In this document: piece by piece, positions 1,459-34,396 of the stretch
Layout: every line of letters starts with the position of its first letter
Numbering within the stretch: the first letter of the stretch is position 1
Assembly: GCA_949296425.1 (NCBI GenBank)
Contig: CASFPN010000018.1
Span: 1 to 34,503, forward strand
Origin: an uncultured bacterium
Lineage (GTDB): Bacteria; Cyanobacteriota; Vampirovibrionia; Gastranaerophilales; Gastranaerophilaceae
Length of the DNA: 34,503 bases
Direction: 5' to 3'
Position numbers and translations under genes: made by a program
The notes under the pieces: model-generated
Database searches by the model: none
Seen by the model: the letters and a program-made list of their open reading frames with translations, nothing else
What the model was told of the DNA's origin: nothing

Positions 1459-2574
1459 ATGGCTGACGATTTGAAACTCAACTGTCTGGCAATCGGATCA
1501 TTGCCCTATAAAAATTTAGATGATGCGATGGTCGTTGTAACAAAAGATTTCAAATCAATTCCTTTCTGGCCGCAATTGCCTAAAATAAGTAAAAACGAAG
1601 ATATGATTGTCCAATTTTTGGAAAACATGCCTTCGTTTTTTTTCGATAAAAAATCAGGCAAAACTTATCTTGAAACAGAAAGCGACAAATTTTTTTCAGA
1701 TATTGAACAATTCTTCTGCGATTATGAAAAAATTATTTCTTATACCTCCCTTGCAAAGGGAGAGGATCCGCGTAAGCGATGGAGAGATTTACCCGACGCA
1801 ATAGAAAAATATGCTATAAATTATTCTTTATCGTTTCCTAAATTCATTGATATAGTAAAAGAAATAAAACCATCATACGCCAAAGGCCAAATTGTCGGGC
1901 CTTTCACGCTTGCCGCAACTCTTGTTGACAAAACCGGCAGATGTGCAATATATGATGAAACATTAAGGGAAATTATCGTTAAAACCCTTACAATAAAAGC
2001 TTTATGGCAGATTAAACAAATCAAATCCGCAAACAGCAATACTATCCCTATAATCTTTATTGATGAACCCTCAATATCACAACTTGGAACATCAGCATTC
2101 ATAACAATTACGCACGAAGAAGTTATTTCAATGTTGAAAGAAATTTCAGATATAATAAAAGCAAACGGAGCTTTAAGCGCCATCCACTGCTGCGGCAAAT
2201 GCGACTGGACAATACCTGTAAAAGCCGGAGTTGACATAATTAATCTTGATGCTTACGCTTATGCACAAAATTTAAGCCTTTTTGATAATTATCTAAAACC
2301 TTATTTTGAACAAGGGAAAAAAATTGCTTGGGGAGTTGTTCCAACGCTCAATGAGGAGTTGCTTGAAAAAGCCGATTTAAGTAAAATGGTTAAGATTTTT
2401 GAAAAAGCTGTAAACTATTTGACTGAAAAAGGAATTGATGAGAAAATTATTATAGATAATTCTCTGATAACTCCTTCCTGCGGTGCAGGCTCACTAAGTG
2501 AAGCTCTTGCTCTAAAAGCAATGGATTTAACAAAACAATTATCAGAGAGTTTGAAAGAAAGGTATTTAATTTGA
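1459..2574 (+). CDS. UroD/MetE-like zinc methyltransferase (possible core-MetE methionine synthase)
   Basis: 371 residues of the TIM-barrel superfamily that includes uroporphyrinogen decarboxylase, MtaA and the C-terminal half of cobalamin-independent methionine synthase. Visible landmarks are GQIVGPFTLAATL, FIDEPSISQLG (Asp202-Glu203-Pro204), the zinc-type motif His243-Cys244-Cys245 within AIHCCGKCDW, and a late Cys341 in LITPSCGAGS. That order (H-x-C, then a distal Cys) matches thiol-activating zinc methyltransferases, not UroD itself. It is far shorter than full MetE and lacks the folate-binding N-terminal half. ATG 1459 has AAGGA six bases upstream. The stop overlaps the CooC-like gene as TTGA. 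Residues about 96-111 are translated from a palindromic repeat. Transfer of methyl from a corrinoid protein to homocysteine is inferred from the CooC, FolD and AcsC/D-like genes in the window. Confidence 0.75.
   Translation: MADDLKLNCLAIGSLPYKNLDDAMVVVTKDFKSIPFWPQLPKISKNEDMIVQFLENMPSFFFDKKSGKTYLETESDKFFSDIEQFFCDYEKIISYTSLAKGEDPRKRWRDLPDAIEKYAINYSLSFPKFIDIVKEIKPSYAKGQIVGPFTLAATLVDKTGRCAIYDETLREIIVKTLTIKALWQIKQIKSANSNTIPIIFIDEPSISQLGTSAFITITHEEVISMLKEISDIIKANGALSAIHCCGKCDWTIPVKAGVDIINLDAYAYAQNLSLFDNYLKPYFEQGKKIAWGVVPTLNEELLEKADLSKMVKIFEKAVNYLTEKGIDEKIIIDNSLITPSCGAGSLSEALALKAMDLTKQLSESLKERYLI
1742..1790 (+). repeat. Palindromic repeat inserted in-frame in a coding region
   Basis: About 48 bp here align without gaps to the core of the 70-bp repeat at positions 1-140. 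The first 19 bases (ACCTCCCTTGCAAAGGGAG) are identical and the rest differ at a handful of positions. The reading frame is kept. The element encodes TSLAKGEDPRKRWRDL (residues 96-111), against TSLAKGGGPRKRWRDF in the open frame through the intergenic copy. The second hairpin is weakened here (TCCGC GTAA GCGAT). It resembles in concept the in-frame palindromic elements of Rickettsia, but the sequence is different. Confidence 0.88.
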
Positions 2575-21267: not shown

Positions 21268-22461
21268 ATGTCCTTATTAGGGAAATATACAGAAAATTTT
21301 ATAGAAGATGACGAGCGGGAAAACAATACAGGTTACACTACACCTGCAGTTTTGAAAAACGATGAAGACATAAGTCTGAAAAAATCAATTCTAATTTCGG
21401 CAATACTTCATCCGACAGTTGTGGGTATAAGCTGGCTTATAGTAGTTATCCTTGCTTTAATGGGAATTACATTTACAATTTTTGAAAAACCGAAACCTAA
21501 AGTTAACGATATTGAATTTGTACTTGTGGATAAGGAAGAAACACCCATCAATAAAAATACACCATACCGCGCAGATATAAATTCACGTGCCGGCGGACAC
21601 CACGATCCGACAAGAAAGGTATCCATGCCATCACCGGCCCCCGGAGCGCCAAAAGCGGCTTCACAGCCTGCTAAACAAGCTGCTGCGAAACCTGCTGCGG
21701 CACAAAATCCGCTTCAAAAAATAGTTAAACAGGTAACCCAGCAGGTTCAACCATCAACTCCTGCTCCGAAAAAACCTGCACAACAAGCAGCTCCCGGGCC
21801 TAAAAAACCTCAAGCCGCAAAACCTGCACCGCCGACAGCAAGACCGTCATTAAAACCGCCTTCAACACCTCGTCCTGTTGCACGTCCATCGAGTCCTTTT
21901 AGCGTACCTGTACCAAAAGGAGGAACAGGATCAGGCAGATATTCAACAGGCCCTATCAGCGGTTCGGGCACTTCCGCCAAAGGCGGAGGAGGCGGAAGTA
22001 CAGCTTCTTCAGGCTCAGGATCACATGCTCCGGCGCCGTCACTTGCGCCGACAGGTAGTTCCGGAACCAAGCTTGCCAAAGGCGGAGGTGGAGGAACAGG
22101 CGGTATTGGCAATCCAGGCCCCGGTAATCCTAACGGACGCCCCGGTATTGACGCCATCAGAGAACCAGATTTCGGTCCTTATATGAGAGAATTACAGCGG
22201 CGTATAAAAATGAACTGGGATCCGCCAAAAGGAAACGAAAGCAAACGTGTTGTTCTGCTTTTCAAAATCGCTAAAGACGGAAGATTACTTTCCTGCAGCG
22301 TGTTTAAATCTTCAGGACTTCCCGGAGCTGATAAAGCAGCAATAAATGCAGTTCAGGCAACAGCACCTTTCAGACCGCTGCCTGCAGAGTTCAAAGGTAA
22401 CAGTATTGATATTCAATTTACGTTTGATTACAACGTATTTGGAGCATCTGGATACAATTAG
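21268..22461 (+). CDS. TonB/TolA-like energy transducer
   Basis: 397 residues. There is a short cytoplasmic N-terminus, one membrane segment (about residues 40-72, VVGISWLIVVILALMGITF), then a long periplasmic linker rich in Pro, Ala, Lys, Gly and Ser, and a C-terminal TonB-like domain (about 300-390: YMRELQRRIKMNWDPPKG, VVLLFKIAKDGRLLSCSVFKSSG, AAINAVQATAPFRPLP). The linker would span the periplasm, and the tail contacts outer-membrane receptors or the Tol system. GGGGAG lies seven bases before ATG 21268. With exbB and two exbD downstream it makes a proton-driven outer-membrane transport or stability system. Confidence 0.88.
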   Translation: MSLLGKYTENFIEDDERENNTGYTTPAVLKNDEDISLKKSILISAILHPTVVGISWLIVVILALMGITFTIFEKPKPKVNDIEFVLVDKEETPINKNTPYRADINSRAGGHHDPTRKVSMPSPAPGAPKAASQPAKQAAAKPAAAQNPLQKIVKQVTQQVQPSTPAPKKPAQQAAPGPKKPQAAKPAPPTARPSLKPPSTPRPVARPSSPFSVPVPKGGTGSGRYSTGPISGSGTSAKGGGGGSTASSGSGSHAPAPSLAPTGSSGTKLAKGGGGGTGGIGNPGPGNPNGRPGIDAIREPDFGPYMRELQRRIKMNWDPPKGNESKRVVLLFKIAKDGRLLSCSVFKSSGLPGADKAAINAVQATAPFRPLPAEFKGNSIDIQFTFDYNVFGASGYN

Positions 22462-23072
22462 AAGCCAGGAATACAGGAGGGCAAGAAGGCAAACAAAAGA
22501 TAAATCTTAATAAAACAGATGCGAGGGATAAAAGAATACAAAACGAGTCCGCAATGACAATAATAACCCGAGTGCATTAACAATATAAAGCCGATTACAA
22601 GAGTATAATATAAAATTCTTGATTTTCAGGTAAAAGGCGATTTGTAAACAATCGTAAGCTATGGCAGAAGAAAAGAAAGGAGATTACGAAAGTTTTTAAA
22701 GCTAAAAAGATGCGAGGGACAAAAGAATACAAAACGAGTCCGTTATGACAATAACAACCCGAGTGCATTAACAATATAAAGCCGATTACAAGAGTATAAT
22801 TATAAAATTCCGATTTACCGGTAAAAGGCGATTTGTAAACAATCGTAAGCTATGGCAAAAGAAAAGAAAGGAGATTACGAAAGTTTTTAAAGCTAAAAAG
22901 ATGCGAGGGACAAAAGAATACAAAACGAGTCCGTTATGACATAACACCCGAGTGCATTAACAATATAAAGCCGACTACAAGAATATAATTATAAAATTTT
23001 TGATTTTCAGGTAAAAGGCGATTTGTAAACAATCGTAAGCTATGGTATAAAGAAAAAAAAGAGAGGATAATT
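22462..23072 (+). repeat. Three tandem ~191-bp repeats upstream of exbB
   Basis: No gene. Unit starts (GATGCGAGGG) fall at 22518, 22709 and 22900; a later landmark (GGTAAAAGGCGA) is spaced 191 and 190 bases. Each unit carries CGAGTGCATTAACAATATAAA, shortened here to GAGTGCATTAACAATATAAA, a TATAAT or ATATAAT box, the hairpin CGATT/AATCG in GCGATTTGTAAACAATCG, and GTAAGCTATGG. Units 1 and 2 end in AAAGGAGATTACG, which lines up with GAGAGGATAATTATG, the real ribosome site and start of exbB after unit 3. The array looks like duplications of the exbB leader. A regulatory RNA or multiple promoter is possible. Confidence 0.85.
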
Positions 23073-23723
23073 ATGGAACTACTACTAACATCAATTAAAA
23101 TGGACTGGCCGGTATTACTGCCGATTTTGGTCTGCTCAATTCTGGTTGTTGCAGTCGTAATCAACAGATTTTGTTTTTACAAGAAAAACAAAAGAGATGT
23201 TGTTTTATTCATTCCCAGATTGCAAAAAGAACTGGTAAAAAACAACCTAGACGGTGCACAAAATTTAGCCATACAATGCGGCGGAGTTATAGGAGAAGTA
23301 ACGGAAGAAGCTGTCAGAATTTTTTCGGAACAAAAAAACGGATTTTCCCGTTCTTTTGATATTGCAGCATCATTAGCCTCCAGAAAACTTGAAAGTCATT
23401 TGACTATCTTAGGTACAATTGGCGGTGTAGCTCCGTTTTTAGGTTTGTTCGGAACAGTTGTAAGAATTCTTTTTACCTTCCAGGATCTTGCAGCACAGGG
23501 AAACCAGTCAGCAGCTGTTGCATCAGGTATCGCATCAGCCTTGATTGCTACAGCATTCGGTCTTGGAGTTGCCATTGTAGCGGTAATTTTTTACAACTCA
23601 TTCCAATCAATTGTAAAACGTTATGAAGACGACTTTCAGCTAATCAAGTTATTATTCTTGAGTTTTGTAGATTCAAATGACGAATCAACAACACCGAGCA
23701 ATGCAAATATATCGCTGTCTTAA
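23073..23723 (+). CDS. exbB: ExbB/TolQ-family proton channel protein
   Basis: 216 residues. Three membrane segments: near the N-terminus (LLPILVCSILVVAVVINRF), then after a cytoplasmic loop with LASRKLESHLTILGTIGGVAPFLGLFGTV, and SGIASALIATAFGLGVAIVAVIFYN. The block GTIGGVAPFLGLFGTV and the following Ala-rich helix are the MotA/TolQ/ExbB signature. It forms the pentameric proton channel that, with ExbD, energises TonB. GAGAGG lies seven bases before ATG 23073. The long repeat leader separates it from the tonB-like gene. Confidence 0.93.
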   Translation: MELLLTSIKMDWPVLLPILVCSILVVAVVINRFCFYKKNKRDVVLFIPRLQKELVKNNLDGAQNLAIQCGGVIGEVTEEAVRIFSEQKNGFSRSFDIAASLASRKLESHLTILGTIGGVAPFLGLFGTVVRILFTFQDLAAQGNQSAAVASGIASALIATAFGLGVAIVAVIFYNSFQSIVKRYEDDFQLIKLLFLSFVDSNDESTTPSNANISLS

Positions 23724-33589: not shown

Positions 33590-34396
33590 TTACCACGGAT
33601 AATCTTCTGTCATCTGCCAGTTATCATACATTATTATTCGCGCGGAACAAGTTGCTGCATCATAGTTGTTCTTTTTGCTGCAGCGCTGTTTGATAAATTC
33701 TTCCGTCTGATGTGAAGCACCGGGTACAATTCCTCGTTCCGTTAAAGAGAAATTGAAAAAATCTCTCCCGTAAATATTGTTTTTTTTAGGCCCGTTCAAA
33801 TCAACATATATATTATTTGACATTGATACAAACGTACCGTCATTTATAAAAAAACTTATTCTGTTGTCATCAGAATTATCAACTACGGCAACCTCTTGTT
33901 TTCTTGCTCCTGTGCGCGTCTGCCATGGAAAATTTTCCGAATAACCGCATTCCTGAAAGGTTAAGCATACATCAGCACCGTTCAAATAAGGTTTCCAGTA
34001 TTTGTTGAAAAAAGCATTAGCGCCTATATCATCTTTCTTTTCCCAGTAAGCATATTCATCATTATAGTATTCCGACAGTTTAAAAGCCTGGTTTAATACG
34101 GAATAAGTTTTTTTCAACCGATTTAACGTCACATCTTTTTGACGTTTCGCTATTAACACAGGCATAGTCATCACAATTACAACACCTATGATGCCGAGGG
34201 TAATGAGAACTTCAGCAAGGGTAAAAGCGCATTGGCGTTGATGATTCGGCAGATCTACGTGCGTAGTAGCTTTTACAAGGGTAAAGACGTATTTGCGTTG
34301 ACTGACCGGCAGATCTACGTGCGTAGCACCCTCGCAATGACAGGATACTCCCTCCCTGATTAGGGAGGGTTGGGGTGGGTATTGATTGTTACCCAT
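33590..34396 (-). CDS. Type IV prepilin-like protein with a repeat-derived leader
   Basis: 268 residues. The prepilin motif is FTLAEVLITLGIIGVVIVM, with Phe58 as the expected first mature residue and Glu62 as the conserved Glu5; the residue before the cut is Ala, not Gly. The mature pseudopilin-like body has DLNGPKKNNIYGRDFF, cysteines in DVCLTFQECGY and CSKKNNYDAATCSA, and ends QMTEDYPW. The first 57 residues are not a normal leader. They come from palindromic repeats (PPQPSLIREG; CHCEGATHVDLP) and a 60-bp tandem duplication. No other in-frame Met or suitable GTG/TTG lies before the FTLAEV motif, so ATG 34396 is the only start, with AAGGA seven bases upstream. Confidence 0.82.
   Translation of the reverse strand: MGNNQYPPQPSLIREGVSCHCEGATHVDLPVSQRKYVFTLVKATTHVDLPNHQRQCAFTLAEVLITLGIIGVVIVMTMPVLIAKRQKDVTLNRLKKTYSVLNQAFKLSEYYNDEYAYWEKKDDIGANAFFNKYWKPYLNGADVCLTFQECGYSENFPWQTRTGARKQEVAVVDNSDDNRISFFINDGTFVSMSNNIYVDLNGPKKNNIYGRDFFNFSLTERGIVPGASHQTEEFIKQRCSKKNNYDAATCSARIIMYDNWQMTEDYPW
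34211..34330 (-). repeat. 60-bp tandem duplication in the prepilin leader
   Basis: 34211-34270 and 34271-34330 align without gaps. Both contain CAAGGGTAAA near the start and CGGCAGATCTACGTGCGTAG near the end. Read on the minus strand they encode THVDLP..QR...FTL..A twice, exactly 20 residues apart (residues 25-44 and 45-64). The copy next to the pilin body keeps FTLAEV; the outer copy has decayed to FTLVKA. Confidence 0.9.

Follow-up and report, generated by a model that had tools for sequence, protein, structure and literature searches.

A two-hairpin repeat of about 46 nt found in frame within conserved genes and before start codons in Gastranaerophilales

The window, the whole 34,503-nt stretch of DNA analysed here, is contig C18 of a 2.0 Mb draft genome, probably a metagenome-assembled genome (MAG), assembled into 46 contigs. 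Relatives sampled at class and phylum level, together with related contig titles, assign it to Candidatus Gastranaerophilales, a group of non-photosynthetic Cyanobacteriota (the class being presumed). It begins with two tandem units carrying a short palindromic element, and a further copy of the element lies within a gene encoding a MetE/UroD-superfamily-like protein. The features are as follows.

1–70, + strand: 70-nt tandem unit 1, including an element copy that starts at 32.
71–140, + strand: 70-nt tandem unit 2, 100% identical to unit 1.
102–147, + strand: complete copy of the element, within the 5′ leader of gene 152–799 (covariance model, E = 1.2e-21).
138–142, + strand: GGAGG at the 3′ end of the element, in the position of a Shine–Dalgarno sequence, 9 nt before the ATG at 152.
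152–799, + strand: gene for a 215-aa protein with no NCBIfam match; its leader element is common to five other congeners.
1459–2574, + strand: host gene of the genic copy, for a 371-aa MetE/UroD-superfamily-like protein; single match in its own genome.
1745–1790, + strand: genic element copy, in frame; net insertion of 42 nt (1745–1786), plus ATTT.
1745–1763, + strand: hairpin 1 of this genic copy, with one pair lost from the 8-bp consensus stem.
1767–1780, + strand: hairpin 2 of this genic copy, with its outer pairs lost; the consensus has a 5-bp stem and a 4-nt loop.

The host ORF is intact and open along its whole length of 371 codons. Its product weakly matches the NCBIfam model PRK06052, methionine synthase (E = 3e-4), and scores E = 0.05 against URO-D; matches to the PDB were of the PPR-repeat type, restricted to residues 295–352, and were set aside. 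CTCCCTTGCAAAGGGAG..GATCCGCGTAAGCGATGGAG occupies 1746–1784 within the ORF, and residues 96–111 of the protein read TSLAKGEDPRKRWRDL. A preliminary description had claimed that a two-hairpin repeat, present twice in noncoding DNA at 1–140, recurs in frame inside this gene, and that the intergenic copies can be read in one frame. The coordinates and translation of the genic copy proved correct, and the copy at 102–147 translates in one frame to TSLAKGGGPRKRWRDF. The two identical units at 1–140 are also present, but the term ‘noncoding’ is too simple for them, the second being the immediate 5′ leader of gene 152–799 with its putative Shine–Dalgarno sequence.

The element has the consensus ACCTCCCTTGYAAAGGGAGGGGRACCGCGYAAGCGGTGGAGGGATTT, and the conserved unit reaches GGAGGGATTT, which gives a length of about 46 nt. 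The genome of the window contains 13 copies with three or fewer mismatches to the pattern, against none for a reversed control pattern. From 32 copies a covariance model was built, which finds 30 matches here at E ≤ 0.1. The genic copy, itself one of the copies in the model-building set, scores E = 5e-17 per genome; the pattern counts and this score together exclude a chance resemblance. Tandem 70-nt arrays lie at, or adjoin, the ends of contigs C10, C18, C34 and C40 of this genome (G000), so the assemblies probably break there and the copy number is underestimated. The two hairpins fold stably (−21.8 kcal/mol, z = −3.4; −3.4 and −4.9 by strand), and the element is thus palindromic with a stable secondary structure, as Rickettsia palindromic elements (RPEs) are. 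The sequence would also allow a pairing of GGAGG with the 5′ CCTCC in place of hairpin 1. In its common GCAA-loop form, the consensus contains no stop codon in any of the six frames. An Rfam search with the element gave no match.

The host protein is matched in 101 of the 146 family genomes. In the preliminary description, residues 96–111 were taken for an insertion, a view that the same residues in repeat-free homologues from distant lineages would have contradicted; the alignment bore it out, 14 residues being absent at the insertion point from all 29 family orthologues aligned first (63–83% identity). Two of these orthologues, L020 and L042, show additional small length differences near this point. 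At the DNA level, a clean gain of 42 nt, net 14 residues, is seen between TTTCTTATA and ATTTACCC. Two congeners share the site: in G190 the copy has diverged, six of the seven substitutions within its insert being residue-changing, and G230 has a variant with a net insertion of 39 nt.

Other genic sites were judged from copies in context and from an alignment of 60 homologous regions plus earlier loci, with genes named by matches to solved structures or NCBIfam, otherwise by recognisable motifs. The element is inserted in frame at 13 sites across 12 genes: those for the MetE/UroD-like protein, PepP, a U32 peptidase/TrhP-like protein (two sites), MurF, TsaD, RlmD, QueE, GH38, MiaB, ValS (in genus g10), DnaX (in a linker) and MetH. 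The ORF-spanning candidates L068, L103, L151, L162, L166, L186 and L330 were left out of this count, because the gene was not verified, the copy was start-proximal or antisense, or an empty orthologue was missing. Genic copies use both orientations and five of the six frames, the element being antisense at both U32 sites and in MurF, RlmD and DnaX. The recommended search for in-frame genic copies in relatives has revealed many of them, in various genes, frames and orientations, which agrees with the suggested parallel with the in-frame palindromic elements of Rickettsia, in another lineage.

Congeneric orthologues without the element exist for 11 of the 13 sites (10 genes), namely all except those in DnaX and MetH. 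The contrast for MetH is a solved MetH without the element (4ccz), and the DnaX insertion site is assigned with less confidence. Solved TsaD (6n9a) and PepP (5jqk, 2zsg) also have no element; for TsaD, PepP and MetH, the alignment to the solved homologues holds up to either edge of the insert, opposite which they have just a gap or a shortened linker. For ValS, the best structural match (1gax) goes no further than the insertion point, and a second structure, 4xkz, has a shorter segment across it; this insertion therefore rests mainly on the congeneric alignment. Several sites are common to species: PepP and U32 to four each, TsaD to three, MurF to two and the MetE/UroD-like site to two plus the variant.

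Some congeneric orthologues of ValS, RlmD and PepP contain other repeats instead of the element. Other inserts also occupy the same loops in TsaD (G340 and G287; L282, L283), U32 (G287; L321), PepP (G176 and G428) and RlmD (G250; L293), which points to these positions being permissive. The RlmD insert of G250 is of the RHSEQSEESVDKSAQND type. The ValS loop used by the element in g10 has a different insert (...GCADPLNASNQAARAL), shared by several congeners, at L303, L306, L308, L315 and L316. Other in-frame repeat families, for example PPHPSPLPLGEG and SPRPLGEGACKAGEG, were seen in RlmD, QueE, an FAD enzyme and MiaB (L179, L186, L187 and L144, in G426 and G287).

The inserts change faster than the remaining protein (pN/pS 0.57 vs 0.14, pooled with PepP not included), and the frame is kept; translated and largely tolerated sequence would behave in this way, and the pattern speaks against excision or bypass. 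The U32 inserts are nearly unchanged across four species; this could reflect constraint, youth or conversion. The genic inserts are probably translated and, in most of the host proteins, apparently placed in loops. The surface loop that the preliminary description suggested for the window protein is approached indirectly, through the gap or linker positions in solved TsaD, PepP and MetH; an AlphaFold model of the window protein made without an alignment has a pLDDT of 37, too low to be used. A transcript from which the insert is excised, or ribosomes that hop over its hairpins, would be a different outcome. The stability of these hairpins speaks for it, and hairpin-driven bypassing exists elsewhere, in gene 60 of phage T4 and in the byps of yeast mitochondria. 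However, every counted genic copy is open and continues in frame into conserved protein on both sides, which skipping does not need, and the genic copy of the window has kept its frame although its hairpins are partly decayed; skipping or removal is therefore very unlikely. Even less probable is that the 16 residues are native and resemble the repeat fortuitously: a gene open throughout is in favour of this, but the residues are missing from the 29 orthologues and the same DNA sequence recurs in unrelated genes and intergenic DNA. The draft state of the genome and the start of the window in a tandem array at a contig end, where assemblies break, could raise the suspicion of an assembly artefact or a decaying pseudogene. 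Yet the same insertion, with substitutions of its own, is present in the assembly of G190, another species; the frame continues in a gene matched once in its genome, and other targets (ValS, TsaD and MurF) come from families generally regarded as essential. This suspicion has next to no probability either.

Copies outside genes show a different bias. In 28 of the 76 copies without a spanning ORF, GGAGGG lies in the sense orientation just upstream of an ATG (counted for ORFs of at least 100 codons), and in the reverse orientation this was found for none. In the leader sequences inspected, the spacing from GGAGG to ATG is about 4–9 nt, and the terminal GGAGGG of these leader copies probably acts as a Shine–Dalgarno sequence. 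The genes concerned include those recognised by sequence as PheS, HydF, TsaB and RuvA, as well as gene 152–799 of the window. It might be proposed that the element is mainly a regulatory or ribosome-binding module of 5′ leaders and that the genic copies are rare by-products. The sense-only placement before start codons, the recurrence of leader sites across several species and the potential CCTCC–GGAGG pairing all agree with this proposal. On the other hand, many copies lie far from starts, in tandem arrays or antisense within genes, and element-free orthologues of two genes, TsaB and a gene for a 104-aa protein, carry GAGGGATT, or a sequence close to it, ahead of the ATG, so the element may only replace an existing site. 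A leader module as the main role is accordingly unlikely, though less so than skipping of the insert. At these two genes the element may have been inserted at, or merged with, the native ribosome-binding site.

The reading preferred here, which is held with high confidence, is that of a non-autonomous two-hairpin repeat of about 46 nt that spreads in some Gastranaerophilales and is tolerated in frame or at ribosome-binding sites. Only genic copies that add a net length divisible by three, in a frame free of stops, would survive; the openness of the GCAA-loop form in every frame makes such survival likely. The insert would be translated as a hydrophilic segment of 10–17 residues, located in a loop or linker that tolerates it, and would then drift under relaxed selection. 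Copies at ribosome-binding sites would persist when in sense, their terminal GGAGGG taking the role of the Shine–Dalgarno sequence. The element is probably mobile; no target-site duplication, a trait of MITEs, was seen by eye at the occupied and empty junctions compared, and ancestral residues have also been lost at some sites, so precise mobility is inferred. A Y1/RAYT transposase was considered as the mobiliser and rejected: Y1_Tnp was found in 6 of 33 congeners and neither in the genome of the window nor in the element-rich G426. No elements were found near the Y1 genes of congeners.

The element was detected by the covariance model in 21 of 33 congeneric species (E ≤ 0.1) and, under stricter filters (E ≤ 1e-6), in 8 of 146 family genomes and 5 of 41 genera. 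In G119, 122 weak model matches were obtained, many of them longer (65–85 nt), suggesting a separate amplified subfamily. The exact pattern matched 16 GTDB contigs, 12 titled Gastranaerophilales, three uncultured bacterium and one Oscillospiraceae MAG; none of the 16 was from Rickettsiales. The Oscillospiraceae MAG (L103, JAFQQV010000054.1) and 53 viral contig stretches contain near-identical elements or elements of the same architecture. The viral stretches (L331–L383) have 38–66% GC, and many have a different second hairpin; the narrower pattern gave one match in viral contigs. Since covariation among close copies is too weak to judge hairpin 2, it was assessed on this wider architecture, where 25 distinct arms are found and a stem of at least 5 bp forms in 74% of cases, as against 4% of shuffles; the arms vary between related elements and the pairing is kept. 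This suggests a broad superfamily of such elements, perhaps all homologous, in gut bacteria. A bolder joint proposal can be advanced tentatively, at somewhat below even chances. It envisages a cross-phylum superfamily with a constant CTCCCTT/AAGGGAG hairpin, a variable second hairpin and a GGAGGGATT end; it would insert repeatedly at ribosome-binding sites and in permissive protein loops, and would have remodelled leaders and proteins of Gastranaerophilales core genes in an RPE-like manner with a mobilisation of its own.

RPEs (RPE-1 to RPE-3 and others) are about 100–150 bp long and have been reported in Rickettsia and Wolbachia, where they lie between genes and also, in frame, inside numerous unrelated core genes, with sites shared by orthologues; the encoded segments are reported as solvent-exposed, and there are several families and possible insertion hotspots (PMC10969869, PMC3767692). 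The present element resembles them in its in-frame palindromic insertions in several unrelated conserved genes, at sites shared by orthologues, and in its intergenic copies; more than one repeat family and possible hotspots of insertion are a further likeness. Unlike RPEs, it is about 46 nt long, belongs to the Cyanobacteriota class Vampirovibrionia rather than Rickettsiales, and uses five frames, both orientations and start-codon positions; its sequence is probably different from theirs as well. It is not classed as an RPE because of its length and lineage. Wolbachia palindromic elements (Ogata 2005, cited in PMC3767692) are likewise palindromic repeats that code for protein, but their host is an alphaproteobacterial endosymbiont. 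Palindromic amphipathic repeat coding elements (PARCEL) encode motifs of 25 residues, arrayed in tandem within ORFs that have no assigned function (PMC2996958). Dyad-symmetric DNA coding for protein is common to both, but PARCEL are not single inserts in conserved enzymes. With REP/REPIN repeats and MITEs, the element shares a short, hairpin-forming, dispersed and non-autonomous character. Those repeats are typically intergenic, REPs being tied to Y1 transposases and MITEs showing target duplications, whereas the element has neither a linked Y1 transposase nor an observed target duplication. Literature searches with its sequence string gave irrelevant matches only, and no paper on such repeats was among the top matches for Gastranaerophilales or Melainabacteria.

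Protein-invading palindromic repeats have so far been known mainly from Rickettsia and Wolbachia, and Rickettsia has been regarded as unusual in how often they enter housekeeping proteins in frame. The 46-nt element does the same in about 12 genes of gut bacteria, and its occupied and empty orthologues form natural before-and-after pairs, which allow testing of how proteins gain segments from mobile DNA, and such elements are also retained at ribosome-binding sites. It should be borne in mind that proteins of Gastranaerophilales genomes carry repeat-derived segments.

Two other repeats were noticed in the window. Three tandem copies of a unit of ~190 nt (about 87–92% identical) lie at 22513–23064, between an ORF that ends at 22461 and one that starts at 23073, and two copies of a 51-nt sequence, spaced by 60 nt, lie at 34216–34326 inside ORF 33590–34396.
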